Origin: Alphaproteobacteria bacterium
Lineage (GTDB): Bacteria > Pseudomonadota > Alphaproteobacteria > RUG11792
Assembly: GCA_025998575.1 (NCBI GenBank)
Contig: BNWD01000002.1
Location: forward strand, 1 to 27,348
DNA: 27,348 nucleotides
Reading direction: 5' to 3'
Position 1 is the first letter of the stretch, and every line of letters begins with the position of its first letter. The translations under genes were made by a program, and so were the position numbers. The notes below the pieces were generated by a model, which did not search any database, was not told the DNA's origin, and saw nothing but the letters and a program-made list of their open reading frames with translations. Below are positions 4,419 through 26,960 of this stretch, in pieces.

Positions 4419-4841
4419 TTAGAAGGAGCTAATTCTGAGAATAGAAAGTTCTAGCAGTCTTTTCAACGAATCCACATCTACTACTACCTCAAACGCACAA
4501 AACGACAGAGCCGGTTCCTGTCACCAGTAGTCCATATTCTAGCAATATACTCTTTTTTTGAATATAAGTATAAAGCTCATTAAGTCATTGCCGTTCTACA
4601 AAATATATTTCATTCAAGGCGCAGAGTCATCGCAATACTTCTTTCTTATCACGTATATTACACTATTATCTACAAAGCTTTGTGTATTATTACAATCCTT
4701 ACTACTCCATTTCTATATTCAATTCCTTACGCTGTCCTTTTTTAAATTATCACTCTGACAATATTTACACATACCAATACCAACCCCTATTTCAAACATT
4801 TTTCTATATTCTACATCTATCCGTAGCTAGTTGGCAATCTC
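4419..4841 (-). mobile_element. IS1-like insertion sequence remnant, copy A
   Basis: The best-preserved copy of a family found several times here. The upstream terminus is at 4841-4821, seen on the plus strand as CCGTAGCTAGTTGGCAAT. ATG 4772 opens an InsA-like zinc-ribbon frame MCKYCQSDNLKKDSVRN, then (past two stops) KW.SKDC and SFVDN, as in IS1-type InsA proteins with CxxC...C. It continues through NGNDLMSFILIFKKR, which matches the EGNGFR.IA.I helix-turn-helix region. After a frame change it reads LSFCAFEVVVDVDSLKRLL, the InsB DDE-domain segment beginning with AFEV. It stops at 4419 without the catalytic C-terminal part. There are at least four stops, so it is inactive. What is seen is the motif order and homology to the other copies. 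The IS1 assignment is by recalled family resemblance. Confidence 0.68.
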
Positions 4842-5085
4842 TCTTCAAATGGTTTCGTTATATCAAACATAAATCTTAAAACTTATTCCAAATCATCTGG
4901 AGAAATGGTGGCGTTCTACTTACTGTTGCAATTCAAAAATATTTACTTTCGTAAACATTCCAATGCTGTTTATGAGAAAGAATCTTACTAGAAAGTTCTT
5001 CTAACTTACAATGTATTTTTAATCCGCAAAGTGGCAGATTAATGTGATATTTTGCTTTTTTCAACTCTAAGTAAGCAATTTATCG
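4842..5085 (-). pseudogene. gene fragment cut by the IS1-like element
   Basis: Directly outside the terminus of IS copy A, the minus strand has strong coding character broken by two frame changes and stops. It reads AKYHINLPLCGLKIHCKLEE, then LSSKILSHKQHWNVYESKYF, then NATISPDDLE and VLRFMFDITKPFEE up to the IS end. I do not recognise the protein. The reading stops at the IS terminus, which suggests that insertion disrupted it. No continuation is evident on the far side of the element. Confidence 0.45.
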
Positions 5086-5089
5086 TTAC

Positions 5090-5383
5090 TTAAACTTTCA
5101 GTCGATTCAGGGCAACTATCAAACAAACTATACCATCTTTGCATTGGTTGGCAATAAAAGAACTTAGCGATTTTTCTGGAATTTGATTTCCATTTTGTTT
5201 TTTAAATAATAACGAAAAAAAATGTACCAAGAGAATTTGCGTTTTGTTCTCCAAATCAATATAATAAAAGTTATCAATAACAGTTATAGATTTACTGACT
5301 TTCTCAGCGCATATCCAAGAGTCATTCAAGAATACAAAGCACGATAAAATACATAAAATCTTAACTATATTTCCCCTTTTCAT
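5090..5383 (-). CDS. small secreted protein of unknown function
   Basis: This encodes 97 residues, starting at ATG 5383. The N-terminus MKRGNIVKILCILSCFVF is a typical signal peptide, with a likely cleavage after WICA near residue 26. The mature part of about 70 residues is Lys/Asn/Ile-rich, contains one hydrophobic stretch (ILLVHFFSLLF) and two cysteines outside the signal (four in total with the signal region), and matches no family I know. A perfect TATAAT promoter lies 35 bases upstream and a weak purine-rich site (AGAGA) precedes the start. The gene lies between decayed sequence and divergent acs. It could also be the 5' remnant of a longer secreted gene, since decayed sequence follows its stop. 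Confidence 0.5.
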   Translation of the reverse strand: MKRGNIVKILCILSCFVFLNDSWICAEKVSKSITVIDNFYYIDLENKTQILLVHFFSLLFKKQNGNQIPEKSLSSFIANQCKDGIVCLIVALNRLKV

Positions 5384-5417
5384 CGCAACATCTCTCTTAA
5401 ATTAATAAAGTACAGAC

Positions 5418-5445
5418 ATTATACTTTAAAACAAGCCGAGGTTAA
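5418..5445 (-). promoter_or_regulatory. promoter of the small secreted protein gene
   Basis: On the minus strand, TTAACC (5445-5440), a 16-base spacer and a perfect TATAAT (5423-5418). The predicted transcript starts near 5411 and leaves a leader of about 27 bases before ATG 5383. Confidence 0.5.
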
Positions 5446-5485
5446 TGAGGAAAGGGGCTGTTTCGCAAAAATACGGTTTGCAAAG

Positions 5486-5514
5486 TTGGGAAATTTTGGT
5501 ACGATTCATAATAT
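5486..5514 (+). promoter_or_regulatory. possible promoter of acs
   Basis: TTGGGA at 5486-5491, a 17-base spacer, and TAATAT at 5509-5514 (or CATAAT at 5507-5512). It lies just upstream of the GTG start at 5538. The -10 match is weaker than in the other promoters listed. Confidence 0.35.
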
Positions 5515-5537
5515 ATCTTTATTCTATTTAGATCTTT

Positions 5538-7406
5538 GTGTTATTTGGGCATGAGTTAGCTTGGAAAGAGCAAGATATTTATGATGAAATCTATGAAAAT
5601 TCTATACAAAATTTTAATGAATTTTGGGCATTCCATTCTAAAGACATAGCATTTTCTCGGCAGCCATCAAGCATCTTTGACAAAGCTACTGGGAAATGGC
5701 TTTCTGGAGCAGCTGGAAACATTTGCTATAATTGCGTTGATAAACATGCCATTGCCACTCCCAAAAAGCCTGCTATAATTTGGCATGGCGATTTGCCGGG
5801 AGAGAGAGAGCTTGTCACGTATTCTGAACTTTTGAATAAAATTTGCAGCATATCTTCTATTTTGCGCTTGAGCGGCATAAAAAAAGGCGATGTAGTGGCT
5901 ATTTACATGCCGATGGTCCCGGATGCTATTGCTGCGATGCTTGCCTGCGCAAGGATAGGTGCTATTCACCTGACAATATTCGCTGGATTTTCGCCAAGCG
6001 CTCTTGCATATAGAATAGAAATGTCTAACGCAAAGATTTTGTTAACCTACAAGAAGGCGTCAAGATCTGGCAAAACGATCGATTTGCTCGGAAATTGCCA
6101 GAAAGCGCTATCTGAAATCAAAGGAAAAACGCCAAAAATTTTAGTCTTGGACGATGAAGATATTTATTTAAACGTTTCTATAAATAGAGACGTAGTCGAG
6201 TGTGATAGCGATGACAATCTGTTCATTTTATATACTTCAGGCTCGTCTGGCAAACCGAAGGGAATCATCCATTCTGGGCTTCCTTTTTTGCTTTATGCTG
6301 CCACGACTTTCAAATTTATTTTCGACGCAAAGTCTGATGATGTATACTTTTGCACGTCCGATATCGGCTGGATAACTGGTCACAGCTATATTGCATATGC
6401 ACCTCTTTTTCAAGGCCTAAGTATCGTCATATTCGAGGGAAATCCGACGTATCCTTCGCCTGATAGATATTGGGATATCATTGAAAACGAGTCTGTTACG
6501 CTGTTTTATACATCTCCTACTGCGCTTCGAACATTGCAAGCATTTGATGAAAATTATATTAAAAGTCGTGATTTATCTAGCCTGCGAATTTTGGGAAGCG
6601 TTGGAGAGCCTATCGACGAAAAAACTTGGAATTGGTTTTTTGAGGCAGTTGGAAAAAGACGTTGCCCAATAGTGGATACATGGTGGCAGACTGAAACCGG
6701 AGGCATCATTTTAGCCCCTCTGTTGGATTTGAAGCGCCAAAAACCATGCGTTGTCGGAAAGCCATTTTTCGGCATTGCCCCAAAAATAATCGACGCAAAA
6801 GACGAATTTTCGTTGGGAAGACTAACAATAACCAACAAATGGCCAGGAATGTGCAGTTCTATATTGTATGAGTGCCCTGAGGATATTGGGGCATGCGTGA
6901 ATATTTTTAATAAAAATTATTTAAAAGACGGGCTATTTTTGACTGGTGATGGTGCATTTTATGACACTGACTTCGATATAAAAGTCACAGGCCGCCTGGA
7001 CGACGTCTTGAATATTTCTGGACACAGGCTGAGCTCTGCCGAGTTCGAAGACGCTATAAACAAGGTCCGCGGCGTTAAAGAATGCGCGATCGTTCCTGTC
7101 GCACACGAAATAAAAGGACAGGCGGCATTTGCATACGTCGTGAAATCAGACAACGTTTCGGATGAAGAGCTGAGAAACGAGATCGCAAGCGCGCTGCGCA
7201 GCGGCATTGGGCCAATCGCTCGCCCAGATTTCATAGCGTTCGTCCATGACTTACCGAAAACCAGATCCGGCAAAATCCTTAGATATCTGTTGAAAGACAT
7301 CGCCGCCAACAAACAATGCACAATCAAAGACCTATCATCACTCTGCAACAAAGAATCCATCGATAATATTATGGCCGAAACTAGACGATGCTTGAATGGA
7401 ATTTAG
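5538..7406 (+). CDS. acs: acetyl-CoA synthetase (AMP-forming)
   Basis: Activates acetate with ATP to acetyl-AMP and then acetyl-CoA, in the cytoplasm. The 622-residue protein is slightly shorter than the usual 640-660. The ATP-binding loop YTSGSSGKPKG lies near residue 230. DIGWITGHSYIAYAPL and TWWQTETGG (near 380) match the acetate-type subfamily, with the tryptophan that restricts the acyl pocket. The hinge is GRLDDVLNISGHRLS. The C-terminal PKTRSGKILR (573-582) carries the catalytic lysine K579, the residue acetylated in regulated Acs enzymes. The start is GTG, because no in-frame ATG precedes conserved sequence, and the Shine-Dalgarno is poor. The gene stands alone. Propionyl-CoA synthetase is a less likely alternative. 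Confidence 0.92.
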   Translation: MLFGHELAWKEQDIYDEIYENSIQNFNEFWAFHSKDIAFSRQPSSIFDKATGKWLSGAAGNICYNCVDKHAIATPKKPAIIWHGDLPGERELVTYSELLNKICSISSILRLSGIKKGDVVAIYMPMVPDAIAAMLACARIGAIHLTIFAGFSPSALAYRIEMSNAKILLTYKKASRSGKTIDLLGNCQKALSEIKGKTPKILVLDDEDIYLNVSINRDVVECDSDDNLFILYTSGSSGKPKGIIHSGLPFLLYAATTFKFIFDAKSDDVYFCTSDIGWITGHSYIAYAPLFQGLSIVIFEGNPTYPSPDRYWDIIENESVTLFYTSPTALRTLQAFDENYIKSRDLSSLRILGSVGEPIDEKTWNWFFEAVGKRRCPIVDTWWQTETGGIILAPLLDLKRQKPCVVGKPFFGIAPKIIDAKDEFSLGRLTITNKWPGMCSSILYECPEDIGACVNIFNKNYLKDGLFLTGDGAFYDTDFDIKVTGRLDDVLNISGHRLSSAEFEDAINKVRGVKECAIVPVAHEIKGQAAFAYVVKSDNVSDEELRNEIASALRSGIGPIARPDFIAFVHDLPKTRSGKILRYLLKDIAANKQCTIKDLSSLCNKESIDNIMAETRRCLNGI

Positions 7407-7787
7407 GATTTTTTATTGAAATATACTTAAAATCTAAAAGGCAAATTACTGCAGATGATTTTTATGATATAGTAATGCTATTATCGTGAATATTTATTCC
7501 CAGTATTGTCAAAGAATTATTACAATTCTTCTGATTTGTTTACAGGCAATATGAAATCATAGCTATATCATTTTATTTTGAGCTGTATTTTATTCGACTA
7601 CCTAAAAATTACTCTAGTTTAAATACCATTGTTTGCGCTATAGATAAAAGCCTAGACTAATAAGCATTAATAATTGATATAAATTTTTCTTAAGAATTAA
7701 AAACATCTCTCAAAACAAAATTCTGCAAATGTGAATGTAGCGAGATGATGCTAAAATTCTGTTATAGGCGTCAATAATGAAATTTTT
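7407..7787. other. AT-rich gap between acs and trmD
   Basis: About 380 bases with no coding frame, repeat or RNA that I can support. There is no intrinsic terminator after acs. A TTATAG near the trmD start could be part of a -10 element, but no -35 accompanies it. Confidence 0.5.
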
Positions 7788-8495
7788 ATGATTCTAGTAA
7801 CCGTAGTCACTATTTTTCCTGAGATGTTTCCAGGGGCGTTGGCGTTTAGTCTTTTGGGCGCTGGGCTTGGCAAATTTTGGCTGCTAAAAGTCATAGACAT
7901 CAGAGAGTTTGCAACAGACAAGCACAAAACCGTTGACGATCGTCCGTTTGGAGGAGGCGCAGGAATGGTTATGAAGGCAGATGTTGTCGACATTGCACTG
8001 AAAGCAGCGCTCAATTTCTATTCTCAACTGCCAAAAATAATATTCATGACGCCTCGAGGTCACGTTTTTTCGCAGAAAATAGCGAAAGAAATAATGGACG
8101 GCAATGATGCGGGAATAATCATTCTTTGCGGGCGATACGAGGGAATAGACCAGCGCGTCATTGATTTCTGGAAAAAACGCTATAATATGCGAGATGTGAG
8201 CATTGGAGACTACATTCTTTTTGGCGGAGAAATTCCAGCGATGGTTATTATCGATTCTTGCTTGCGCTTAATTCCAGGAATCATGAATAACACAGAATCA
8301 ACATCCAGCGAAAGTTTTTCCATCGACCTACTGGAATACCCTCAATACACTAAACCTAGGAGCTGGAATAGTGAAGATGTTCCAAGCATACTCCTCTCCG
8401 GCAACCACAAAGAAATCGCAGAGTGGCGCACCAAGAAAGCAGAAGAGATCACAAAAAATGTTCGTCCCGATCTATGGAAAAGCTACAAAAAATAG
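7788..8495 (+). CDS. trmD: tRNA (guanine37-N1)-methyltransferase TrmD
   Basis: SPOUT-class methyltransferase that makes m1G37 in tRNAs reading CNN codons and some others, preventing +1 frameshifts. Its 235 residues are a normal length. PFGGGAGMVMKADVV is the substrate loop. LCGRYEGIDQRV and VSIGDYILFGGEIPAM form the knotted SAM site. LEYPQYTKP and LLSGNHKEIAEWR are the C-terminal tRNA-binding signature. rplS lies downstream, as in the classical rpsP-rimM-trmD-rplS order, but the pair is separated by 165-204 bases that carry an rplS promoter, and rpsP and rimM are not upstream. Confidence 0.96.
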   Translation: MILVTVVTIFPEMFPGALAFSLLGAGLGKFWLLKVIDIREFATDKHKTVDDRPFGGGAGMVMKADVVDIALKAALNFYSQLPKIIFMTPRGHVFSQKIAKEIMDGNDAGIIILCGRYEGIDQRVIDFWKKRYNMRDVSIGDYILFGGEIPAMVIIDSCLRLIPGIMNNTESTSSESFSIDLLEYPQYTKPRSWNSEDVPSILLSGNHKEIAEWRTKKAEEITKNVRPDLWKSYKK

Positions 8496-8625
8496 CTCTT
8501 TATATTTTTATATATTGCCATAAAACACGCAAATACTAACCACTCTATAATTATGTTATCGCACATTTCTTTAGTTGTCAAGAATATTTTCAATAAAAAT
8601 GAATGCAGCCCGAATAAAAATTATG
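8496..8625. other. spacer between trmD and the rplS promoter
   Basis: AT-rich spacer that interrupts the ancestral trmD-rplS operon. No terminator hairpin with a U-run is visible. Confidence 0.4.
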
Positions 8626-8654
8626 TTGAAAATTCGATTTAAACGCGATACAAT
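8626..8654 (+). promoter_or_regulatory. promoter of the rplS-metG-gpsA-addB-tpiA run
   Basis: TTGAAA at 8626-8631, a 17-base spacer, and TACAAT at 8649-8654, each one mismatch or so from the sigma70 consensus. Transcription would begin near 8661 and give a leader of about 40 bases before the rplS ATG at 8700. Confidence 0.62.
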
Positions 8655-8699
8655 AAAAGTATGAGGGTCTCAATCGATTGGGTTTTGTGGAGAATTGCG

Positions 8700-9071
8700 A
8701 TGAATATTATTGAGAAAATTAATGAAGAACAAGTTGCGAAACTGGTGGCAGACAGGAAAATTCCGGATTTCAGAGCTGGCGACACAGTCAAAGTTTTGGT
8801 AAAAGTCGTTGAGGGGGCAAGGGAACGTATGCAAGCGTTTGATGGATTTGTTCTGGCAAAAAAGAATAGAAGTATAAATTCGTCTTTTAAGGTGCGCAAG
8901 ATTTCTAATGGCGTCGGTGTTGAACGTTTATTTCCTTTGTATTCTCCTAACATTCAAATAGATGTTATGAAACATGGCAAGGTTCGCAGAGCTAAACTAT
9001 ATTATCTCAGAACAAGACTTGGGAAGAGCGCTCGTATCGCAGAACGCCGCTTAAGTGTTGCAGCTGGTTGA
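8700..9071 (+). CDS. rplS: 50S ribosomal protein L19
   Basis: A protein of the large subunit near the 30S interface. From ATG 8700 it has 123 residues, a normal length. A GGAG sits 8 bases upstream, and the 13 extra codons from 8661 lie in the predicted leader. [50 protein letters not shown] and [15 protein letters not shown] are L19 signatures. It starts a tight gene run, with metG beginning 13 bases after its stop. Its stop region overlaps the N-terminal extension of the longest metG frame, which is why I use the later metG start. Confidence 0.95.
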
Positions 9072-9084
9072 TTCTTGCTTACCG

Positions 9085-10626
9085 ATGAAGGCGATATTTA
9101 TTACAACTCCTATATATTATGTCAATGCGAAGCCGCATATAGGGCATGCATATACTACCGTTGCTTGTGATGTTTTTGCCCGCTTTCATCGGATGCTCGG
9201 ACATGATGTAAAATTTACGACTGGGACGGACGAACACGGAAATAAGATTGAGCAAATTGCTAAAAAGTTGAACAAAAAACCGCAGGAGTTCGTTGATGAT
9301 ATATCTCTATTGTTTTTGAATCTTTTGCCAGCGCTTAATATTAGCAATGATGATTTTATCAGGACAACACAACTGCGACATAAAAAAGCCGTGGCTCATT
9401 TTTGGAACAAGCTTTATGGAAATGGTTATATCTATCTTGGAGAATATTCAGGTTGGTATGACATGCAAAATGAAGCGTATTTTTCTGAAGACGAAATAAA
9501 CGACGGAAAGTCTCCGCTTGGCGGCGCTATTCAGTTCATGACAGAGCCGTGTTACTTCTTCAAACTTTCAGAATTTGGAGAAAAATTATTAAAGTTTTAT
9601 GATAAAAATCCAGATTTTATTTTTCCGTTGCAGCGGCGAAACGAAGTTATTTCATTTGTCAAGCGGGGTTTGGCGGATTTGGCCATTTCGCGGACCTCAT
9701 TTAACTGGGGCATTTCCGTGCCGAATGATCCGAAGCATGTCATTTATGTGTGGCTCGATGCTCTGACAAATTATTTAACATTAAATGGGTATCCTGAAAA
9801 CGAGAACCAGTCGGAAGATGCATTTTGGCAAAGCTCTCACCATTTTGTTGGGAAGGAGATAGTTCGCTTTCATGCAATATATTGGCCGGCGTTTTTGATG
9901 GCTGCTGATATGCCTCCGCCAAAACATGTTGTTTCTCATGGATGGTGGCTGAGTGAAGGCGAAAAAATGTCGAAGTCGCTTGGCAATGTTCAAGATCCAC
10001 TCAAATATTGCGCTTTGTTTGGTTCTGACGCATTGCGTTATTTTTTGCTCCGCGAGTTGCCGTTCGGATCTGACGGAAATTTCTCGTTGGAAGGCTTTGT
10101 CAACAGATATAACTCAATTTTATCTAATTCTTATGGAAATTTATGTCAACGAGTTTTGTCCTTCATTTGCAAAGGTTGTGACAAAATAATCTATCGGCCG
10201 TCCAAGCTTGATCCGTGTGACGTTGAATTTATTGATTCCGTTAAAGCCGCACTTGCTAGTATTGCTTCTTTGATTGAACAATTTGCGTTCAGTCGATATC
10301 TGGAACAGATCGAACTTGCTGTGTCAGCTGCAAACAAATATGTTGACGCACAAAAACCTTGGGTTTTAAAGGATTCTTGTCCACAACGAATGCAAGATAT
10401 TTTATTCATTTTGGTTGAGCAGATATATGCAATAACAAAATATTTCTGGCCTGTCATTCCACTTGCCGCTGAAAAAATTTTGCAACAAATTAATGTTCCT
10501 TATTCGTTGCCGCTGTCTTGTCAAGATGAATTTCCAAATGTCGTTCACGTCAATCAGCCGGAGCCTGCTTTTATGAGAATCGATGTGTCCGATCTTGGAA
10601 AATTTGATGTATATTCAAAAGATTAA
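9085..10626 (+). CDS. metG: methionyl-tRNA synthetase
   Basis: Charges tRNA-Met. The 513-residue class I synthetase has the HIGH motif in PHIGHAYT and KMSKS in GEKMSKSLGNV. Further landmarks are TGTDEHGNKIEQIA and the connective region YSGWYDMQNEAYFSEDEI, which lacks zinc-binding cysteines, as in the compact alphaproteobacterial type. No C-terminal EMAP dimerisation domain is present. I start at ATG 9085 (MKAIFITTPIYYVN), since family proteins begin at this point and the longer frame from 9055 would overlap rplS. The Shine-Dalgarno is weak, so translation may be coupled to rplS. The 3' end overlaps gpsA by about 20 bases. Confidence 0.96.
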   Translation: MKAIFITTPIYYVNAKPHIGHAYTTVACDVFARFHRMLGHDVKFTTGTDEHGNKIEQIAKKLNKKPQEFVDDISLLFLNLLPALNISNDDFIRTTQLRHKKAVAHFWNKLYGNGYIYLGEYSGWYDMQNEAYFSEDEINDGKSPLGGAIQFMTEPCYFFKLSEFGEKLLKFYDKNPDFIFPLQRRNEVISFVKRGLADLAISRTSFNWGISVPNDPKHVIYVWLDALTNYLTLNGYPENENQSEDAFWQSSHHFVGKEIVRFHAIYWPAFLMAADMPPPKHVVSHGWWLSEGEKMSKSLGNVQDPLKYCALFGSDALRYFLLRELPFGSDGNFSLEGFVNRYNSILSNSYGNLCQRVLSFICKGCDKIIYRPSKLDPCDVEFIDSVKAALASIASLIEQFAFSRYLEQIELAVSAANKYVDAQKPWVLKDSCPQRMQDILFILVEQIYAITKYFWPVIPLAAEKILQQINVPYSLPLSCQDEFPNVVHVNQPEPAFMRIDVSDLGKFDVYSKD

Positions 10627-11575
10627 CCGCATTGCAGTTCTTGGCGCTGGAGCTTTTGGAACTGCTTTGGCTGTTTTGTATTCCAAAAAATTTGATGTGA
10701 GTTTGTATTCGTGTTTTCAAGATCATGTTGCAAAAATGAAGAAGAAGCGTCAAAATGACTTCTTGGAAAACGTTGATATTCCGGCCTCTATTGATATAGA
10801 TGTTATCAATTCTTTTCAAAAAAGCAAATTCGATTGTGTTTTCTGGGCGTTTCCGTTAAAGCCTTCTCTTGAGATTTTGCGCCAAATAGCTGCGCATTTG
10901 GACGGGAATAACGTAATAATATGCGCCAAGGGGTTGCTCCATGATGGCACTTTTTTAACAGACGCTTTTTCGAAAATATTGCCGAATTCGCGGCTCGGAT
11001 ATCTTTCTGGGCCGAATTTCGCACATGAACTCGCTGCGTTCAATAATTCGGCGGCCATCATAAGCGCGACTGATATATTACATGCTTCTGATTTTGCAAA
11101 CGCGCTTTCGCTCGAAACATTCAAATTGTTTCCATCCACGGATGTGAAAGGCGCTCAACTCTGCGGAGCAGGAAAAAACATCATAGCCATCGCTTCAGGA
11201 ATCGTCGCTGGTTTGCATCTTGGATATAACGCACAGGCCGCTCTTGTTACGGAAGGACTTTTGGAAATATCTGCGCTTGGTGTTGCGCTTGGGTGCAAAA
11301 GTGAGACTTTTCAAGGCTTATGTGGATTTGGCGACCTTTTTTTGACAGCCTCAAGCGGGCTCTCGAGAAACAGATCTTTTGGAGAAAAATTAGCAAAAAA
11401 AGAGCTTTCGAAATCGAATCAAAAACCTGAGCAAACATGCGAGGGTTATGAAAGTGTTGTCCAGATACTACATCTTTCAAAAAAACATAGTATTAACGTG
11501 CCGATTTGTCAAGCTGTTTATCGGATTTTATTTGAAAACGCTGCGCCAGAATCCATTATAGATGTTTTTAAATAA
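10607..11575 (+). CDS. gpsA: glycerol-3-phosphate dehydrogenase [NAD(P)+]
   Basis: Reduces dihydroxyacetone phosphate to sn-glycerol-3-phosphate for phospholipid synthesis. The protein has 322 residues from ATG 10607. The Rossmann loop is IAVLGAGAFGTALAV (residues 9-23). SGPNFAHELA and CGAGKNIIAIASGIVAGL carry the substrate lysine, and GYNAQAALVTEGLLEI and GLCGFGDLFLTASSGLSRNR are strong GpsA signatures. The alternative start 10583 adds eight unconserved residues, and GGA upstream of 10607 favours the later one. It overlaps metG at its start and the AddB-like frame at its end by 14 bases. With tpiA downstream it can draw lipid glycerol from triose phosphates. Confidence 0.95.
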   Translation: MYIQKINRIAVLGAGAFGTALAVLYSKKFDVSLYSCFQDHVAKMKKKRQNDFLENVDIPASIDIDVINSFQKSKFDCVFWAFPLKPSLEILRQIAAHLDGNNVIICAKGLLHDGTFLTDAFSKILPNSRLGYLSGPNFAHELAAFNNSAAIISATDILHASDFANALSLETFKLFPSTDVKGAQLCGAGKNIIAIASGIVAGLHLGYNAQAALVTEGLLEISALGVALGCKSETFQGLCGFGDLFLTASSGLSRNRSFGEKLAKKELSKSNQKPEQTCEGYESVVQILHLSKKHSINVPICQAVYRILFENAAPESIIDVFK

Positions 11576-13322: not shown

Positions 13323-13324
13323 AC

Positions 13325-17927: not shown

Positions 17928-18235
17928 TCACATTTGAAACACTTACTATCTTCGTTCTTTCCTGTTTTGTTGGATATTATGTCGTCCTGAAAGTGACGCC
18001 AGCTTTGCATGCTCCGCTTATGTCTGTCACGAACGCAATTTCAAGCGTTATCATAATTGTCGCAATTGGAGCTGTTGGCTGTGATTTAGGCTGCGCTTGT
18101 TTGACATATTGGCTCGCGCTTCTTGCAGTTTTTTTAACATCGATCAATATTGTTGGTGGATTCATGTTGACGCACAGGATGCTGGCGATGTTTTCTATAA
18201 AAAGAAAGAAAAAAGGAGGCGAAAATGCTTGCTAA
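17918..18235 (+). CDS. pntAB: NAD(P) transhydrogenase subunit alpha part 2
   Basis: A 105-residue membrane subunit, part of the proton channel domain II. There are three hydrophobic segments: FETLTIFVLSCFVGYYVVLKV, then HAPLMSVTNAISSVIIIVAI and YWLALLAVFLTSINIVGGFM. The motif PLMSVTNAISS is diagnostic of PntAB. A good Shine-Dalgarno (AAAGGAG) lies inside the end of pntAA, and the start overlaps that gene by 10 bases. The C-terminal basic tail (MFSIKRKKKGGENAC) holds the AAAGGAGG Shine-Dalgarno of pntB in its codons. Confidence 0.95.
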   Translation: MFMITFETLTIFVLSCFVGYYVVLKVTPALHAPLMSVTNAISSVIIIVAIGAVGCDLGCACLTYWLALLAVFLTSINIVGGFMLTHRMLAMFSIKRKKKGGENAC

Positions 18236-19589: not shown

Positions 19590-19683
19590 AATTGTTTATT
19601 AATTCTAAAGATATTTAATAATTTGCACATATAACTTCCAGTTAAGATAAACCCTATACAATATTCAAACGTGAATATCAAAT

Positions 19684-19812
19684 AAAAAAGCACCGTGCTA
19701 AGCTTGGGGAGGATATAACAGAGCTGCCTTAAGGCAAACTCCATACGCACGATGCCAGAAGCTCTTTCGAACTTCGCTTTTAATATTAACACGCAAAAAT
19801 GGAGTTGTAAAG
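19684..19812 (-). ncRNA. candidate small structured RNA with own promoter and terminator
   Basis: On the minus strand, TTGAAA (19848-19843), an 18-base spacer and TATAAA (19824-19819) form a promoter overlapping the terminase stop. The predicted transcript of about 125-130 bases contains GAAGUUC-GAAA-GAGCUUC (19775-19758), a seven-pair stem capped by a GNRA tetraloop. It also has a nine-pair stem GCAUCGUGC/GCACGGUGC (19755-19747 with 19698-19690) followed directly by six U's (19689-19684), as in an intrinsic terminator. Inside the large stem, UUGCC-UUAA-GGCA folds as a smaller hairpin, and CCUCCCC is left unpaired. The 5' segment AACUCCAU (19806-19799) is a perfect complement of AUGGAGUU (19744-19737), which offers an alternative fold. 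It matches no RNA family that I recognise. It could instead be the 3' untranslated region and terminator of the terminase message. Confidence 0.55.
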
Positions 19813-19818
19813 AACTCT

Positions 19819-19848
19819 TTTATACTTTTTTAATAACTAAAATTTCAA
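19819..19848 (-). promoter_or_regulatory. promoter of the candidate small RNA
   Basis: TTGAAA (19848-19843), 18-base spacer, TATAAA (19824-19819), minus strand. The -35 overlaps the stop codon of the terminase gene. Confidence 0.5.
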
Positions 19849-21107
19849 AAATTGATAGTTGATATGTGATAATTGCCTCTATTTTGTTGAGATTTTAGGC
19901 CCTGTATTGCCCAAACAAGTGCGTCAACCCTGTCTGGAGATAACGTTGCTTTCTCATCATATGAGAGCGAGCACATTTGCTTTTCTAGTTCTATGAACCG
20001 CTTCGTATGGAAGACTTTCCTCGATTCATAAAGAAACGAAATCGGTTCAGCTCTTGCAACTTTTCCCCTGATTGCCTTTGTAGGATTAATCGGAATATCC
20101 GGCTGAATCGTACGAATCATTTCGCTGACCAAATCCCCTCCGTTGTTAGTTTCGACTATGACGCTGCTTGCCGAATAGTTATAAAAAGCATTGCAAACGA
20201 TCTTGGCCCAGGCTGGCGGGCTGTGTTTTCCGCTCAGGTCTTCCAGAACGTATATACGCTCGTCATTGCCGATTCCAGCGACGATTATGCCGGTTTCGTC
20301 TGAGTTTTTGGAGCAGCTGACAGCTGGATCAACACCGATGACCACCCGATCCAAATCAGCGCAGTCAATTTCACGATAGCGTATGTTTTCCTGTTTCCAA
20401 ACAGTGTTTTCTTTTTCCAAAATCAGCTCGCCAAATAGCTCTTGCTGCCCGCACCTCGTTTCGCTATATTTTACCTTCATCGCTTCGATAAATCGCGCAG
20501 ACAGGTTTGTCTCATTATCAAAAGTTGATCCCTTCGTCAAGTGTGTTTTTTTGTCTTCAGCCAGCTCCTTCAGGATTTCAAGCGGCCGAGGAGTCGTAGT
20601 CATTATGCATTTCGGATCCTCGCCTAGTCTCAACGTGAACATAATTTGAATCCAAATTTCCTCAGGATGCCTGAATTTCGCGAACTCGTCTATCCAAATG
20701 AGATCGAACTGCAGCCCACGCATCGATTCATAATTGTCAGCTCCAATGATATACGCAACAGCTCCATTTTTCCAAGCTATCTGATTTTTGGACTTATAAT
20801 ACTTGAATTTTATTACGTCCTCATCTTCAGTTTTGTCTTCGAGATTATTGAACATTTTTTGTGCGATAGACGTAGAAAGCAGACCGCTGATGCCTTCGAC
20901 CATGATAGTTTTAGCCTCTCCGATCGTCTTTCCAATGATCGCAATCCTCTTATACTTCCCAGAATTGATAAGTTCCATGATATTCTCAGCCCCGGTCCTA
21001 GTTTTCCCGAAGCCTCGTCCAGCTAATATCATCCAAAGTGCCCAATCACCATCAGGTAATTTCTGCGACTCCCTAGCAATCTCTCCCCACGACATTATAT
21101 TTTCCAT
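19845..21107 (-). CDS. phage/gene-transfer-agent-type large terminase
   Basis: The DNA-packaging motor: an ATPase that drives DNA into a capsid, fused to an RNase H-like nuclease that cuts it. The 420-residue protein has Walker A GRGFGKT (30-36), Walker B LIWIDE with D140-E141, the coupling motif TTTPRP (170-175), and nuclease acidic residues in GVDPAVS (D260), VETNNGGD (E319) and SPDRVDALVWA (D392, D395). All look intact. AAAGGAG with a six-base gap before ATG 21107 fixes the start. It resembles the terminase of alphaproteobacterial gene transfer agents and Rickettsia-type remnants. No portal, protease or capsid gene is adjacent. Its codon use resembles that of its neighbours, which points to long residence. 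Confidence 0.88.
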   Translation of the reverse strand: MENIMSWGEIARESQKLPDGDWALWMILAGRGFGKTRTGAENIMELINSGKYKRIAIIGKTIGEAKTIMVEGISGLLSTSIAQKMFNNLEDKTEDEDVIKFKYYKSKNQIAWKNGAVAYIIGADNYESMRGLQFDLIWIDEFAKFRHPEEIWIQIMFTLRLGEDPKCIMTTTPRPLEILKELAEDKKTHLTKGSTFDNETNLSARFIEAMKVKYSETRCGQQELFGELILEKENTVWKQENIRYREIDCADLDRVVIGVDPAVSCSKNSDETGIIVAGIGNDERIYVLEDLSGKHSPPAWAKIVCNAFYNYSASSVIVETNNGGDLVSEMIRTIQPDIPINPTKAIRGKVARAEPISFLYESRKVFHTKRFIELEKQMCSLSYDEKATLSPDRVDALVWAIQGLKSQQNRGNYHISTINF

Positions 21108-21166
21108 AATTTTCTCCTTTGCTAAAATGATTGTTGATGTAATTTTTAGATTTAAATGTTTTTGAT

Positions 21167-21191
21167 GTTAGGAACATGCCTAACGTTCCTA
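21167..21191. promoter_or_regulatory. interleaved palindromes between terminase and hfq
   Basis: Two inverted repeats share bases: GTTAGG-AACATG-CCTAAC (21167-21184) and TAGGAAC-ATGCCTAAC-GTTCCTA (21169-21191). The site lies in the divergent intergenic region. It may be an operator for a dimeric regulator or, in RNA, two mutually exclusive hairpins. Confidence 0.5.
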
Positions 21192-21328
21192 TGCTACCAC
21201 TTCCACAAAAACAATGTCAACAAAAAAATGTACATATGCGCATATTTAAAATGTGCGTTCTCCACTTGCAAAATTTTGATTTTTCAAGCAAAATGCTATA
21301 TGTTGTTCAATATTTTATTGGCGTGCAG

Positions 21329-21661
21329 ATGTCTGAGAAAATAATAAATATACAAGATGCATTTTTGAATTATATGCGCAAGAATAAGGTGCCAGTGACG
21401 ATTTTTTTGCTAAATGGCGTCAAGTTAACTGGCATTATTTCCTGTTTCGACCAGACGTCGATCGTTGTGAAGCGCGAGGGATATACGCAGCTTGTTTACA
21501 AAAATGCGATTTCGACGTTTTCTCCTCATGGTCCGATTAGCGTTTTCGATTGGAATGGACCGAATAATACTTCGGAAAATTTTAGAAAAAAGCCGGATGA
21601 AAGTAATAATTCGCTAGACTCTGATGAAGATTCTGACATTGAAGATGATGTGTGTGAATGA
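21329..21661 (+). CDS. hfq: RNA chaperone Hfq
   Basis: A hexameric Sm-fold protein that pairs small RNAs with mRNAs. I start at ATG 21329 ([14 protein letters not shown]), which matches the family N-terminus and gives 110 residues. The 51 extra upstream codons are unlike Hfq. Sm1 is [20 protein letters not shown], and Sm2 is [11 protein letters not shown]. The Sm2 hallmark YKHA is YKNA here, so the proximal-face histidine (H57 of E. coli) is Asn59, and the Phe after FDQ (F42) is Thr43. The lysine (K58) remains. The tail is strongly acidic ([11 protein letters not shown]), similar to the acidic tip that regulates RNA release in E. coli Hfq. TGCTATATG at 21294-21302 is an extended -10 candidate. 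The stop overlaps the alr start as ATGA. Confidence 0.92.
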
Positions 21662-22743
21662 GGCCGTTTTTCTTGAACGCCTTCATAGATTTGGAGGCTA
21701 TTGGGCGGAATTTCAAGGCGATGCAGCAAGTTGTCGGAGAAAACGTTGAGTGCGCGGCAGTCGTCAAAGCCAATGCTTATGGCCTTGGCGATTCAACGGT
21801 TTCCGAGAAATTGTATGACATCGGATGCAGGAATTTTTGGGTTGCATATTCAATGGAAGCAGAGAGAATAAGGAAAGTTCTGCCGCTTGACGCGAAGATC
21901 TATTTTCTGCATGGCTTTCAAGAATTTGATATTAATTTGTTTAAAAATCAAGGTATAATTCCAGTAATAAACTCAATTGATGAATTTTCGATAATCAAAA
22001 AAAAAGGTATAAATTTCGTCTTACATGTCGACACTGGACTTTCCAGAATCGGACTTTCGGAGCACGATTTAGATTGTATTTTATGTGATTTGAAAACCGA
22101 AAAAATAGATTATGTCATTTCTCACTTCGCTTGTTCTGATGAAAAGTTTAATAAATTAAATGATATTCAAAAGGAAAAATTTGACAGAATTTTGCATAAA
22201 ATTAGAAGCATTGTTGATGTAAAAAGCAGTGTTTCTGCAAGCTGTAGCACACTGCTAGATCGCAAATATCACTACGATGCAGTCAGAATTGGAGCGTTCT
22301 TATACGGGATAAAGTCTGGAAAATGTCCAATTCCTGAGAACGTTTTCTCATTGAAAGCCAAGGTTTTGCAGACGTATGAAATCGAGCCTGGAACAAGCGT
22401 TGGCTATGGCGCGACGTTTATAGCTAAGAGGAAAACAAAAATCTCTGTTGTTTCGATAGGATACGCCGACGGCTTGAAGAGATCGCTTGCGAACAAAGGC
22501 TGCGTCTTGTTTTATGACGATTCCGATAGACATTATAAAGCTCCAATTATCGGCAATATCTCGATGGACCTAACTGCCTGCGACGTAACAGCCGTTCCGG
22601 AGAATTTGACTATCCACCACGCTGACGCAACGATTCTAAGCAAGGATTACTCAATAAACGATATGGCGATAGACGCCTCAACCATCCCATACGAAATCCT
22701 GACAAGCTTCTCACACTCGCAACACACAGGACAATATGAATAA
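21658..22743 (+). CDS. alr: alanine racemase
   Basis: A PLP enzyme that makes D-alanine for peptidoglycan. The 361-residue protein has the PLP lysine K37 in [21 protein letters not shown] and HFACSDE follow in the barrel, VRIGAFLYG supplies the arginine that contacts the pyridine nitrogen, and the C-terminal domain has the catalytic tyrosine in GYGATF (family SYG.T). [11 protein letters not shown] and [14 protein letters not shown] are further signatures. The ATG overlaps the hfq stop as ATGA, so translation is probably coupled to hfq. D-Ala synthesis implies that a cell wall, at least a thin one, is kept. Confidence 0.94.
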
Positions 22744-22780
22744 ATAGACGATCACTTAATATATTTTACAATATTTTCTC

Positions 22781-22809
22781 TTTACATTGCCTATTTTTCG
22801 TGTTACAAT
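22781..22809 (+). promoter_or_regulatory. promoter of the M48 metalloprotease gene
   Basis: TTTACA at 22781-22786, a 17-base spacer, and TACAAT at 22804-22809, each one mismatch from consensus. Transcription would start near 22817, about 20 bases before ATG 22838. Confidence 0.62.
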
Positions 22810-22837
22810 AAAATTATATATGGTGAGAAGTTGAATT

Positions 22838-24184
22838 ATGAGAGTATTAAGATATATATTTTGTTTTTTGCTGAGCTTTCAGTGCTTTGCTGGCGAGAAT
22901 GAATATCTAATTATAGACGAAGAGTCTGAGAATTTGGTGGGTGAAATTGTCGACAAGTTGAAGGGAGCGCTGAATTATAAGCAGGATATTTCTGTTTATA
23001 TTTCGAGCAGTCGTGTTTTGAATGCTGCAGCTACTCAAACAGGAGACATAATAGTCAACGCAGGAAGCATAATCAGATGCGAGAATATTTCCGAGTTGAT
23101 CGCGGTTTTGGCTCACGAAGTTGGCCATGTTGCTGGAGGACACATAACTATGTTCATGTCTCAGCGAAACGCGTTCATGCAAATGGGATTGATCACTATG
23201 CTGATTGGTGGCGCAGCTGCAGCATTGTCTGGTGATCCGAGTCCACTTTTGGCCGGCGCATATGGAGCACAGATTTTCCCTCAAAAAATGGCTTTGAGCA
23301 AGATGAGACAGATTGAAAATCGCGCTGATTCAAAGGCCGCGGAAGCTGTTAAAAAGTTGGATTGGCCGGTTTTTGCTGGATTTGTCTCTATGCACAGAAA
23401 ATTGCAGAACACTGTTAATAGCCCTTCTTCAGACGCAAATTATTGGTCGACTCATCCTGAATCTACAATTCGGATTACAAAGTTTTTGGATTATGCAGCT
23501 GAGGAAAAAAAGAAGGCCTTTTCGAAGGAAACGATTGATTATTTGGCTTCGCTTCAGCATCGTTTGATGATAATTAAGGCGAAGCTGAAAGCGTTGGTTT
23601 GTGATTTGAAAACTGTCGTTGGCGCGCTTGAATCATCGGAAAATAAAGTTGATAAATACGCGCTTGCAATAGCTTTATATCGAGCGAACATGTTTGCTGA
23701 TGCTGAAAAGTTGATCGATGAAATAATCGCGTCAGATAGCGAAAATTTCTTCAATCCTGCTCATCTGATGGAAATCAAGGCGCTATGTTTGCTTAGTCGT
23801 GGAAAACCAAAAACTGCAATGGATTTTGCTTGGTCGCTGTGCCAGAAAAAAACAAAAATATATCGTGATCTGCTCATTTTATATGCGGAAGCCGTGATTC
23901 GCTGCGAGTCAAAACAGCATGCAAAACAAGCTATAAACTTGCTCAATATACTATATTTGAAGACTAAAACGGATTTGACTTTGATAAACACTATTGGCAG
24001 ATTATACGCTCTAATTGGCGATGACACAAGCGCGAGCCTGTTTGCAGCCGAAGCTGCACTTGTCACTGGAGACAAAAAAAGCGCCACCTTCCACTCAAAA
24101 AAAGCTATGAAATCCTCTAATAACATCGTCCGCCGCAAAGCTGCAGATGTATTATCCGATGCCTCTGCGGCAAATTGTAGTTGA
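22838..24184 (+). CDS. secreted M48-family zinc metalloprotease (BepA-like)
   Basis: A periplasmic peptidase probably involved in quality control of outer-membrane assembly. The 448-residue protein starts with the signal peptide MRVLRYIFCFLLSFQCFAG. The zinc site is HEVGH (H93, E94, H97) in LAHEVGHVAGGH. The third ligand is in the QIENRADSKA segment (E160). A hydrophobic hairpin MGLITMLIGGAAAAL lies between them, typical of the family's membrane-associated helix. The C-terminal half (about 260-448) is helical with TPR-like repeats, as in BepA. The start has GAGAAG upstream and its own promoter. No terminator or downstream partner is seen. It is named BepA-like by domain order. The exact orthology is not established. 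Confidence 0.88.
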   Translation: MRVLRYIFCFLLSFQCFAGENEYLIIDEESENLVGEIVDKLKGALNYKQDISVYISSSRVLNAAATQTGDIIVNAGSIIRCENISELIAVLAHEVGHVAGGHITMFMSQRNAFMQMGLITMLIGGAAAALSGDPSPLLAGAYGAQIFPQKMALSKMRQIENRADSKAAEAVKKLDWPVFAGFVSMHRKLQNTVNSPSSDANYWSTHPESTIRITKFLDYAAEEKKKAFSKETIDYLASLQHRLMIIKAKLKALVCDLKTVVGALESSENKVDKYALAIALYRANMFADAEKLIDEIIASDSENFFNPAHLMEIKALCLLSRGKPKTAMDFAWSLCQKKTKIYRDLLILYAEAVIRCESKQHAKQAINLLNILYLKTKTDLTLINTIGRLYALIGDDTSASLFAAEAALVTGDKKSATFHSKKAMKSSNNIVRRKAADVLSDASAANCS

Positions 24185-24749
24185 TTTAGCGTAGACAATT
24201 ATTACATTCTTAATTTTGATAATTTTAGGATTATCTCATAATATATTTTGTTTTATCCAGATGCAAATTGCAGTGATTCTGATCAATCATTGCAATGTCG
24301 TTTTTAGTTTTGCAAATTCTTTTGTTTAATTAAGGCTATATAATAAAATAGTTAAAAATTAAAGAACATAGATATATTCAAATAGTGTTCTGCAGAACAA
24401 TTCTATTTCTGTATCTAGAATATAACGGATTTAAGAGAATTGCTAAAATAATAAAGGCAATACTGATGCTTGGCACAGCCATATGCCATATTAAGTTGCA
24501 TAACATTTAGATAAAAAGGGAAAAAGCTATTTTAGATTATAGCTATGAATTCTATTTGCATTAGATTTTGTTAAGTTTGAAATTGAATGAGAACGAGCCT
24601 ACTCTTAAAAATCTATACTTAAAAATTTTTGTATGGAAAAGTAATGGTCAAATCTATAAAATGCATTAATTAGCAAATACAAATTGCTAGAATAAACACA
24701 CCTGCAGCACTCGACATAGTTAGAGTTTTAGAACAATTTTATCCATTTT
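24185..24749. other. AT-rich gap after the M48 gene
   Basis: About 560 bases with many stops in all frames. I see no gene, strong hairpin or recognisable IS segment. It may contain the lost distal part of IS copy C. Confidence 0.4.
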
Positions 24750-24881
24750 TTATTATTTTAGTATGGATAGTAACATTTATCTCGCTATTCTAGATTATAA
24801 CTACTCACAATCACTACAGCAAACGACATAGTTTTTCGTTCAGCTATATATTTACCAAAGCCGTAACTGGTTGACAATTCC
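24750..24881 (-). mobile_element. IS1-like remnant, copy C (upstream end only)
   Basis: The terminus at 24881-24861, seen on the plus strand as CCGTAACTGGTTGACAAT, matches the upstream ends of copies A and B. Inward, GTTATAATCTAGAATAG and GCGAGATAAATGTTACTATC align with the corresponding leader of copy B (GTTATAATATAGATAATAG, GCGAGATAAGTTTGT), after which the similarity fades. Only the end and leader survive. No transposase motif is legible. Confidence 0.5.
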
Positions 24882-24962
24882 AGCACTTTCTAACACCGTA
24901 TCACGATTCCTCTCAGAAATTTATTCCTTATAGGTTTGAGCTTGGATTTAATTTCGTATATA

Positions 24963-25172
24963 TTATTTCTCAATTTTATAGCAGAGAAATTGGTTCGGTG
25001 GTTTGAGCATGATCAATTCGAACATATTTCCAAGGCCAGAAGAGCATTGTATAGCGTTCATAGAAGCCAGTGTTTCTAAGCATTTCTTGAACTTCTCAAA
25101 GCTAGTCTGATTATGCGCTATGTTAGTTTTGAGCATAGTCACTTTTTCGGTTAATTTTGATAAAATATTCAT
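24963..25172 (-). CDS. small protein of unknown function, possibly truncated
   Basis: The 69-residue frame starts at ATG 25172 with an excellent Shine-Dalgarno, AAGGAGAAAGAAA directly upstream. The sequence MNILSKLTEKVTMLKTNIAH is amphipathic and helical, followed by FEKFKKCLETLASMNAIQC. There is no signal peptide, no membrane segment and no recognised motif. The stop comes 82 bases before the terminus of IS copy C, so the protein may be a shortened form of a longer one that the element disrupted. The strong ribosome site makes a translated gene, or a recently active one, more likely than chance. Confidence 0.45.
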   Translation of the reverse strand: MNILSKLTEKVTMLKTNIAHNQTSFEKFKKCLETLASMNAIQCSSGLGNMFELIMLKPPNQFLCYKIEK

Positions 25173-25310
25173 TTTCTTTCTCCTTATTTTAATATGAATT
25201 GAAATATTTTAAGTAACTTCTGTAGTTTATATGAGTCCTTGCCACAAAAATACTTTTATGAGAGTAGAGAAAATCAATATACACTAAATGCAAATGTGAT
25301 ATGAATAAAG

Positions 25311-25403
25311 GGAAGGAGTTATGTAGATCCCCCTAGGTGGGCTGGTGTTAAAGATGAAGTCCTTTACCATAAAAACATTAAGAGAGTATTAACAAATCTG
25401 TAA
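25311..25403 (+). pseudogene. short coding-like fragment, unidentified
   Basis: An open stretch of 30 codons reads GRSYVDPPRWAGVKDEVLYH and then KNIKRVLTNL before TAA. It has no start codon or upstream reading, and it is richer in G and C than its surroundings, which suggests a remnant of a real gene. I do not recognise it. The rest of 25200-25590 shows nothing. Confidence 0.3.
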
Positions 25404-25589
25404 ATTCCATGTAAAAAAATGAATTTCTAAATGTATGGGAAAATTATTGGCAATAACTATTTTGTGGAAACTGTATAAAATGTCAGCGATACTATAATAA
25501 CAAAGTATGCGCGTAATCAATTACAAGGTATGTAATGCATAAGAAGCTCTTTAGAGTTTCTTTTTGAGTTAAAACTATGTAGCTTTTAT

Positions 25590-25991
25590 GCAGAGGGTTT
25601 TATCACCAAGCAATTTAAACGAAAAGCTACAGCATTCTTTTTACAAGGTAATAATTTAGCGCTGAGTTGTAATACTATACTAAACATGTTTTTGGCTTCG
25701 TAACTATATGTTCTCTATAAAATTTTAGTCGTCATTTCAATGAATCTCCTCCTGTCAGCATCAGTCCATATTCTGATCCCATTCTCTTTTTTTGAATATA
25801 AGTTAAAGAACATTAAATCAGCGCTATTCTTCAAAAGCCATTTCCTTCACGCTACAGTTATGACAGCCTCCTCTCTTTGTAACTATTACAATACTTACAC
25901 TCCACAATATACATACAAACTTATCTCGCAAATATGCTCAAACCTATTATCTATATTATAACGCCCACAACCGCAACCGGTTGCCAATCCC
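25590..25991 (-). mobile_element. IS1-like insertion sequence remnant, copy B
   Basis: The upstream terminus is at 25991-25971, on the plus strand CCGCAACCGGTTGCCAAT. About 65 bases inward the frame reads MYIVECKYCNSYKERRLS (zinc-ribbon start), then REGNGF.RIALI (helix-turn-helix region). The second CxxC is deleted. After EYGLMLTGGDSLK a deletion removes the AFEV segment. The InsB C-terminus follows as HIVTKPKTCLV.YYNSALNYY, LVKRML and, after a frameshift, KLLGDK. Copies A and B share CTTATATTCAAAAAAAGAG exactly. It is clearly inactive. Confidence 0.68.
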
Positions 25992-26037
25992 ATGATTTTA
26001 TGAATGATAATTGAGAAAGATAGATTGGATGATCAGA

Positions 26038-26330
26038 ATATGCACTGTTTTAGTGCATTTGAGGTAGGAAGAGACCGAAATTCGTTAAAAAGACTGCTAA
26101 ACAAGATGTCTCATCTGAATATAAAACTATATGTACCGATGCAAATTACTCGTACAAAAAATAATTCCTAAGTTTATACAGCATATAGTTACAAAGCATA
26201 AGATATGTTTAGTAAAGTCTTACAACTCAATGCGAAGATATTATCTTGCAAAAAGAACGCTAGAACTTTTAGCAAAATTGCTTGGTGATAAATTTAATCG
26301 TCACTGGAAATAGTTTCAAATTCGCATCCT
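26038..26330 (+). mobile_element. IS1-like remnant, copy D (InsB C-terminal part)
   Basis: This fragment is on the opposite strand to copies A-C and carries the distal transposase. It reads CFSAFEVGRDRNSLKRLLNK from 26038, then with a frameshift CTDANYSYKK, whose Asp is the likely second catalytic residue of the DDE set. After another shift it reads IIPKFIQHIVTKHKICLVKS, YNSMRRYYLAKRTLELLAKL and LGDKFNRHWK, ending at 26313. A worn terminus (CGTCACTGGAAAT) follows. The segment of the family with RKT...YSKS between YLAR and LEL is missing. It abuts copy B tail to tail with about 45 bases between them and lies 50 bases before the tRNA-Glu gene. Confidence 0.68.
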
Positions 26331-26343
26331 GTATAATTAATGC

Positions 26344-26372
26344 TTGCGGAATGTTGATAAATCTGGAATAAT
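26344..26372 (+). promoter_or_regulatory. promoter of the tRNA-Glu/tRNA-Lys pair
   Basis: TTGCGG at 26344-26349, a 17-base spacer, and AATAAT at 26367-26372. This places the transcription start at or just before the first tRNA base at 26381. Confidence 0.45.
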
Positions 26373-26380
26373 ATATGAAA

Positions 26381-26456
26381 GTCTCCTTCGTCTAGAGGTC
26401 TAGGACACAGCCCTCTCACGGCTGCAACACGGGTTCAAATCCCGTAGGAGACGCCA
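26381..26456 (+). tRNA. tRNA-Glu (anticodon CUC)
   Basis: Acceptor stem GTCTCCT/AGGAGAC, discriminator G, and encoded CCA. The anticodon stem CAGCC/GGCTG encloses the loop CTCTCAC, giving anticodon CUC, which reads GAG. The T arm is CGGGTTCAAATCCCG. All arms pair well, so the gene looks functional. A UUC tRNA-Glu must exist elsewhere to read GAA. Confidence 0.95.
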
Positions 26457-26464
26457 TTTATTTT

Positions 26465-26540
26465 GGGCGCCTAGCTCAGTTGGTAGAGCAACTGACTCTT
26501 AATCAGTGGGTCATAGGTTCGAATCCTATGGCGCCCACCA
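26465..26540 (+). tRNA. tRNA-Lys (anticodon CUU)
   Basis: Acceptor GGGCGCC/GGCGCCC, discriminator A, and encoded CCA. The anticodon stem ACTGA/TCAGT has the loop CTCTTAA, giving CUU, which reads AAG. The T arm is ATAGGTTCGAATCCTAT. It lies 8 bases after tRNA-Glu and is surely co-transcribed. No terminator with a stable stem follows. Confidence 0.95.
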
Positions 26541-26791
26541 CATTAAATTTGAATTTTTATTATTTCTTCTATTGAGTTTCGGAAACGCATTGTAACTTAG
26601 ATTGCGTACTTAATTTCGAAGAAAATTACAACTCGAAAGACGACGCATTACATGACAAATTCATACTGTTAAAACGATACATTACAGCATTAGTTATTTC
26701 AGATGTTTTTGCGAATTATCATTTTCATTAATTATAATTGAACAATAATACTTCTTAAACATGCAAAACATTTGAAATAATGTCAAATATT

Positions 26792-26960
26792 GGAAACTAG
26801 CCAACTATTCACGGCCATAACAACAGTTAAGTTTATCACCAAGCAACTTTACGGAAAGCTCCAATGATTCTTTTTGATAGTGCAATCTTGCAAGATAATA
26901 TCCTAACACTGAGTTGTAATATACTCAGGGATTGGGCATTTTTATTTTCTTAAGATTCAT
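26792..26960 (-). mobile_element. IS1-like remnant, copy E (distal end with terminus)
   Basis: On the minus strand it reads VYYNSVLGYYLARLHYQKES and then LELSVKLLGDKLNCCYGRE before the stop. It therefore keeps the YNS...YLAR...LEL..KLLGDK signature, including the part between YLAR and LEL that is lost in B and D. The opposite terminus is at 26792-26813, on the plus strand GAAACTAGCCAACTATTCAC, which is an inverted match to the upstream ends of A-C. It supplies the second terminal inverted repeat of the family. The reading upstream of 26930 is broken. Confidence 0.62.

Follow-up and report, generated by a model that had tools for sequence, protein, structure and literature searches.

Broken copies of an IS1-family element, MITE-like elements and a multiplied phage-type gene pair in a reduced genome related to the Holosporales

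Results

Repeat fragments at the locus

The window, i.e. the whole stretch of 27,348 nucleotides analysed here, is part of an assembly (G000) of 855,653 bases in 171 contigs, with a completeness of 63.5% and a contamination estimate of 0.21%; it represents a reduced genome whose nearest named relatives are found in the Holosporales. The Holosporales were named by the search with the window's terminase; an RpsA scan yielded no match, and an Alr alignment scan brought up a single near relative, the proteobacterium RUG11420 (53%), with the next row at 38%. The window contains four fragments resembling the insertion sequence IS1 (copies A, B, D and E), several pieces of a second repeat family, a damaged copy of a small gene termed g7 and an intact large terminase gene (Table 1).

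Table 1. Position of the features described in the window
Feature	Position	Strand	Remarks
MITE L-type end fragment and the repeat sequence after it	2648..2860	+	
MITE L-type end fragment	3610..3700	+	
Copy A, IS1-like fragment	4452..4841	-	Left terminal repeat (~4820-4841), zinc-ribbon start
Large terminase gene, phage/GTA type, intact	19845..21107	-	Outside the repeat family; context for the cargo
Segment C, R-type MITE end	24747..24880	-	Terminal repeat ~24861-24880
Damaged g7 copy (cargo)	24882..25172	-	ORF 24963-25172 is the remaining 69-aa frame
Ribosome-binding leader, common to g6 copies	25173..25200	-	g6 absent at this site
Second MITE-like element, Lmid and L-type end	25239..25580	-	On the far side of the cargo from segment C
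Copy B, IS1-like fragment	25592..25991	-	Left terminal repeat, zinc-ribbon stretch, helix-turn-helix, DDE end
Copy D, IS1-like fragment	26042..26313	+	C-terminal half of the transposase; found by tblastn with the L028 protein
Copy E, IS1-like fragment	26792..26935	-	C-terminal end and right terminal repeat

The first-pass annotation had assigned five fragments, A to E, to a single family. Pairwise blastn comparisons, with E-values computed for the five-segment set, connect four of them (B–D, 2e-26; A–B, 1e-17; D–E, 2e-9; A–D, 5e-8; B–E, 4e-6), and the lack of a direct match between A and E (at most 10 nt) is explained by the fact that each holds different parts of the element. Segment C was rejected as an IS1 copy: its blastn matches to the other segments span 8–24 nt and are at chance level, and it belongs to a MITE whose interior is unrelated to the insertion sequence. 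The transposase motifs listed in that annotation are present, CKYC in copy A, EGNGF.RIA in copy B, where stops interrupt it (by-eye reading), and AFEV..SLKRLL, CTDANYSYKK, HIVTK..CLV..YNS..YYLA and LGDK in copy D. As it had also stated, no intact reading frame was seen in the window copies: the transposase of copy A is internally deleted after the zinc-ribbon start and that of copy B is disrupted by stops and deletions.

The family extends well beyond five fragments, since copies A and D have 43 and 44 matches in their own genome, respectively, self-matches included. A query across C and B returned 136 rows forming two groups, one corresponding to the IS1 part and the other to a second repeat family at about 24747-25585. 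All repeat modules combined mask 521 of 3,262 bases at positions 2276-5537 and 1,472 of 3,164 bases at positions 24185-27348; the proposal that the IS1-like family explains much of the intergenic sequence thus holds in part, some of the masked sequence being MITE and cargo. Note that two tRNA genes lie between copies D and E (positions 26381-26537) and that positions 27140-27348 contain an additional short repeat, with 7–8 matches, itself included, in 289 kb of own contigs and no likeness seen to the IS or MITE probes.

Identity of the insertion sequence

A consensus built iteratively from own contigs describes an element of about 700 bp with a zinc-ribbon start, a DDE-type end and terminal repeats GGGATTGGCAAC..TTACGG. 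It starts with GGGATTGGCAACCGGTTACGG, followed some 45 nt further on by a start codon and then by the zinc ribbon CKYC..KWKCKDC; the latter, which reads CKYCNSSSLVKDCVRNGIQKWKCKDC and is also given as CKYCNSSSLVKDCVRNGIQKWKCKDCNRSQ, was judged by eye to be of the N-terminal InsA type. Downstream come MDELYTYVQKK, RIWTAVDRNRLCFSAFEVG, CTDANYSY and HIVTKSETCLVESYNSVLRYYL. The right ends read ..GGCCGTAAATAGTTGCCAATCCC, so that the two ends are GGGATTGGCAACCGGTTACGG and GGGATTGGCAACTATTTACGG (right ends read by eye).

The census of IS1, MITE and cargo sequences covered 442,715 distinct bases of own contigs, out of 855,653 in total. It yielded 131 IS1 pieces, whose identity to the consensus probe ranges from 68 to 93% (median 81%), and 71 broken IS1 loci covering 18,375 bases (443 kb examined). 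One near-full copy, on C18, measures 718 bp and has both ends. In the own contigs examined, no intact transposase was seen; all copies are broken and their frames disrupted, the longest stop-free sense stretch over the IS1 loci being 113 aa, which corresponds to part of the domain only.

Members of the IS1 family are about 700–800 bp long, with inverted ends of about 20 bp starting with GG; they produce target-site duplications of 8–9 bp and encode two frames joined through a programmed frameshift. The 718-bp C18 copy and the GG-starting ends agree with this length and end type. As for the DDE_Tnp_IS1 domain, PF03400 has no match at E ≤ 0.001 in this genome; it has matches in 8 of 35 family genomes, 7 of them above the cut-off. 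Three proteins of same-family relatives match PF03400 at 5e-13 to 3e-12 and the NCBIfam model transpos_IS1 down to 5e-24, under that model's own cut-off, and a protein search with one relative's IS1 transposase retrieved 69 homologues, the majority labelled PF03400. The relatives' transposases in turn match the copies of this genome (best tblastn E-value, 2.7e-19), segment D being matched by the L028 transposase at 3.4e-7 in a 435-kb set, and their IS1 ends start, as read by eye at five loci, with GGGATTG (L026, L028, L029 and L038) or GGAATTG (L034). The domain is thus found via homologous relatives and, with no PF03400 match in the own copies, IS1 membership rests on the consensus and on these relatives. 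That the repeats belong to another DDE family is scarcely credible: the own copies do not reach PF03400 directly and the NCBIfam IS1595 and IS6 models weakly match the relatives too, but IS1 scores best by many orders of magnitude (5e-24 vs 9e-5 for L029), and the GG-type ends and the zinc ribbon also speak for IS1. Sequence comparison therefore confirms repeats A, B, D and E as fragments of one predicted IS1-family element and upholds the initial description of a dispersed, decayed, IS1-like family that has IS1-type relatives with similar ends.

A larger family of MITE-like elements with IS-type ends

The end motif shared by the fragments, another early observation, is real: a 20-base terminal pattern, with up to five substitutions allowed, was counted 49 times across 289 kb of own contigs, whereas three mononucleotide shuffles averaged 4.3 occurrences. 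Its inversion in copy E is due to the fact that E bears the right end of the element. Besides the IS ends, two end types with a different continuation were found (L-type and R-type), and these are joined in elements of 296–556 bp (n = 7 paired) with no transposase. The overlap between these elements and the insertion sequence is limited to about 20 terminal bases, which agree with the two IS ends at 17/20 and 18/20 positions when compared by eye. The 442,715 bases contain 90 L-end and 81 R-end pieces, each end type being present on 39 of 43 contig pieces; this family is larger than the IS1 family. Short, devoid of transposase, numerous and having ends in common with an autonomous element, these repeats are MITE-like. 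The element at 25239..25580 has lost its outermost 47 bases, after which copy B begins. The picture drawn at first was therefore incomplete: it had overlooked this larger second family as well as the cargo at 24963-25172. Taken together, IS1, MITE and cargo sequences mask 56,793 of the 442,715 bases examined.

The cargo, a phage-type gene pair

The g7 gene is small (about 100 aa) and, in relatives, comes after a head–tail connector gene. Of 34 relatives, 15 have a homologue, represented by a single row and mostly as an open frame of 103–117 aa. At the nine relatives' loci that were read, the gene in front of g7 (g6) measures about 180–210 aa; g7 follows it immediately in eight of them and some 450 nt downstream in L178. 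In turn, g6 is present in 31 of 34 relatives, always at a single place, with four split into two adjacent rows. This genome, however, gives 18 rows for g6, over 13 contigs, and 12 rows for g7. The g6 proteins of two relatives match PF05135 (4e-9 and 3e-11) and TIGR02215 (1e-10 and 3e-14), above the cut-off in all cases, as well as the head–tail adaptor PHROG 442 (3e-8 and 4e-16); a g6 profile reached only E-values of 0.24–0.26 against the PDB. For g7, nothing above chance was found in Pfam and NCBIfam (two relatives) or among PHROGs (nine sequences), no match was obtained in the PDB, and when the g7 of one relative was searched against proteins, only its own record came back.

The g6 copies of this genome start behind the same leader as the window g7, which indicates that the window copy has lost g6. 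Overall, the g6 pieces are 73–94% identical to the consensus probe (median 86%). The g6 copies on C26 and C28, although they have lost internal stretches in frame, can still be read from start to stop (140 and 116 aa), and the g7 copy on C30 aligns over its full length with those of eight relatives. In an alignment inspected by eye, the g6 copies resemble mosaics, with indels common to different combinations of copies. Some additional features occur next to these genes. A palindromic, GC-rich repeat some 160 nt long (14 pieces, e.g. L058:2904-3067 and L062:3334-3494), located between g6 and g7 in several copies but elsewhere too, looks like a separate REP-type element. On L049 (4643-4787), a g6 copy ends shortly ahead of a tRNA-like stretch. 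Finally, g7 gives way to an IS1-like left end on two contigs (L046:13757-13955 and L067:12872-13034), at one and the same codon, suggesting that an IS-carrying unit was probably itself multiplied.

MITE pieces at the borders of the cargo

In the 442,715 bases, cargo is found at 24 places, containing g6 (13) and/or g7 (15), two adjacent stretches on L072 being tallied as one place. Within 150 nt, a MITE piece borders 17 of these places on the left and 13 on the right; 10 are bordered on both sides and 4 on neither, and at 14 of the 24 at least one side is without a recognisable MITE piece. Direct orientation of the right-hand MITE is seen in 12 of 13 cases, the sole exception being the window, where the orientation is opposite. 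On the left, the leader starts at the same point in 8 of 14 rows, directly behind a readable MITE terminus in 7 of these 8; the remaining 6 left junctions are of another kind or decayed. On the right, a MITE terminus lies within about 10 bases of the end of g7 in 9 of 12 rows, the best junctions passing through AAGTGCTT, and is missing in the other 3. Cargo thus stands between two MITE copies, as expected for a composite element, at 10 of 24 places. Target-site duplications are not in excess over the control for the eight end pairs scored (mean score 4.28 vs 3.85 for mismatched flanks), and the single composite end pair that could be scored has no duplication. A search of the relatives with the MITE–cargo stretch gave only matches of 25–32 nt, in 3 of 34 genomes.

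Codon-position bias in the cargo copies

Differences from the consensus at codon positions 1, 2 and 3 number 114, 95 and 205 in g6 (12 sequences) and 34, 54 and 99 in g7 (8 sequences), compared with 446/343/382, 338/290/315 and 435/395/452 in three non-coding controls. Unlike those of g6 and g7, MITE differences are not concentrated at the third position; the IS1 blocks are mixed, with a third-position excess in two of four. The excess in g6 and g7 shows that protein-level selection was at work during the divergence of these sequences, whether it concerned a number of copies or a master copy that itself evolved. No enrichment of in-frame indels is seen in g6 (5 of 14 vs 25 of 83 in IS1), which argues against a long preservation of every copy. 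As for the ancestral burst of transposition put forward in the first-pass annotation, the 68–93% identities of the IS1 pieces and the change of g6 and g7 under protein-level selection fit a burst and a prolonged activity alike.

Terminase, connector and capsid in the family

The terminase gene of the window has a 420-aa open frame, for which the best other match is a Holosporales protein (74%); phage proteins reach at best 42% identity among the matches listed, and all 364 matching phage records lie below 60%. The HK97-type capsid protein (PF05065) is found in 31 of 34 relatives, as one row in 30 and as two in G036, and was not found in the own assembly (63.5% complete). Wherever g6 and the capsid gene are both present (29 relatives), they are on different contigs, suggesting that g6–g7 stood apart from the other head genes before amplification. 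The g6 protein of one relative has no match at 1e-5 among 50,697 phage records.

In RcGTA, the gene transfer agent (GTA) of reference here, the structural genes form one cluster. The genes described above differ from it in being apart from one another and in the multiplication of g6–g7; they resemble it in their conservation within the lineage, a single-place connector and an HK97-type capsid each being present in 31 of 34 relatives and a conserved terminase in the window. This distribution suggests that the terminase, the capsid and the connector make up a family-wide, scattered, GTA-like set kept by descent, of which g6–g7 may be read as a piece, although the connector could be a prophage relic instead of a GTA gene. 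GTAs in such endosymbionts are the subject of George et al. 2022, as referenced in PMC11909080.

Discussion

We consider it probable that the g6–g7 copies were spread by composites formed from the MITEs of an IS1-family system that is now extinct. The IS1 transposase would have acted on MITE ends; two MITEs would have bracketed a g6–g7 locus, giving rise to a composite element; this composite would have been multiplied by transposition, and probably also via MITE–MITE recombination; and the copies would have decayed after the last intact transposase was gone. The IS1/MITE system is indicated by the coexistence of broken IS1 copies of about 700 bp with MITEs that have nearly the same ends of about 20 bp, and the spread of a composite by g6–g7 copies that lie beside or between MITEs, through junctions common to several of them, when relatives have the pair at a single place. 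From this structure we infer that the composite may have moved as a unit.

With target-site duplications showing no excess over the control, recombination between MITEs stays an alternative to transposition. The cargo would then have been spread by homologous recombination or gene conversion between scattered MITEs, which we regard as possible, if somewhat unlikely. The mosaic look of the g6 copies, in which indels recur in different combinations when read by eye, fits such exchanges, and the L- and R-type ends, each present on 39 of 43 contig pieces, would provide homology everywhere; however, the common junctions and the direct orientation of the flanking MITEs fit either route, and nothing favours recombination alone.

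A more far-reaching proposal, which we make tentatively and hold to be rather doubtful, is that a pair of IS1-family MITEs captured a conserved GTA-type head–tail connector operon, which thereby became a recombining gene family of many copies, several of them long kept under protein-level selection.

Alternatively, the g6–g7 copies might be remnants of a duplicated prophage or GTA cluster next to which MITEs inserted later. Scattered phage genes are usual in bacteria, g6 is of phage type, and more than half of the cargo places have no MITE piece on at least one side. Yet the borders of the units fall on MITE ends and recur in many copies, the PF05065 capsid was not found in the incomplete own assembly, and the separation of g6 from the capsid gene in 29 of 29 relatives does not speak for a duplicated cluster; we therefore find this origin quite improbable. 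An assembly artefact, with redundant strain variants or misbinned contigs mistaken for copies, is very improbable in spite of the 171 contigs and the limited completeness, given that three cargo units are found together on contig C1 and two on C5, that g6 pieces diverge as much as they do from the consensus probe, that contamination is estimated at 0.21% and that the window contig alone bears IS, MITE and cargo.

Several known systems are close to the one described here. The element resembles IS1 insertion sequences in the DDE_Tnp_IS1 domain of its relatives, its zinc-ribbon start, its length of about 700 bp and its GG ends of about 20 bp, and is unlike them in that all own copies examined are broken. 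Its ends also differ from the 24-bp ISAba3-like end GGTGGTGTTTCAAAAAGTATGCTG given in PMC6382973, where an IS1-family composite is described with an 8-bp target-site duplication. A MITE-bounded composite is a known type of structure: composites flanked by MITEs or TIMEs, in which two copies of a short element with the ends of an autonomous partner stand on either side of other genes, as here, are described in PMC6382973, PMC3934969, PMC4133298 and PMC13367494. The genes flanked in those composites are integron or resistance genes or a mercury module, whereas the cargo described here is a damaged phage-type connector pair, present at 24 places in a sample covering roughly half the assembly. Likewise, the amplification of the Orientia RAGE provides another intracellular genome rich in mobile-element copies, but the element in question, as described in PMC10732058, is conjugative, in contrast to the IS1/MITE system. 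No report of a GTA or phage connector multiplied by MITEs was found among the matches listed from the open-licence PMC literature. As far as the literature searched shows, the new part is the combination of IS1-type ends with a g6–g7 cargo and its copy number, and the multiplied phage-type gene pair is more unusual than the insertion sequence family.

The debris of the IS1-family system, comprising broken copies, MITEs and cargo, makes up at least 6.6% of the reduced 855,653-base assembly, in which a conserved phage-type gene pair was apparently dispersed by this system. Were the captured-operon reading true, the copies would amount to a transposon-made diversification of a GTA part and not only to junk. 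If g6–g7 belongs to a GTA, a transposon would have captured one of its components and raised it to many copies, and comparing these copies would make it possible to test what becomes of GTA genes in obligate symbionts.
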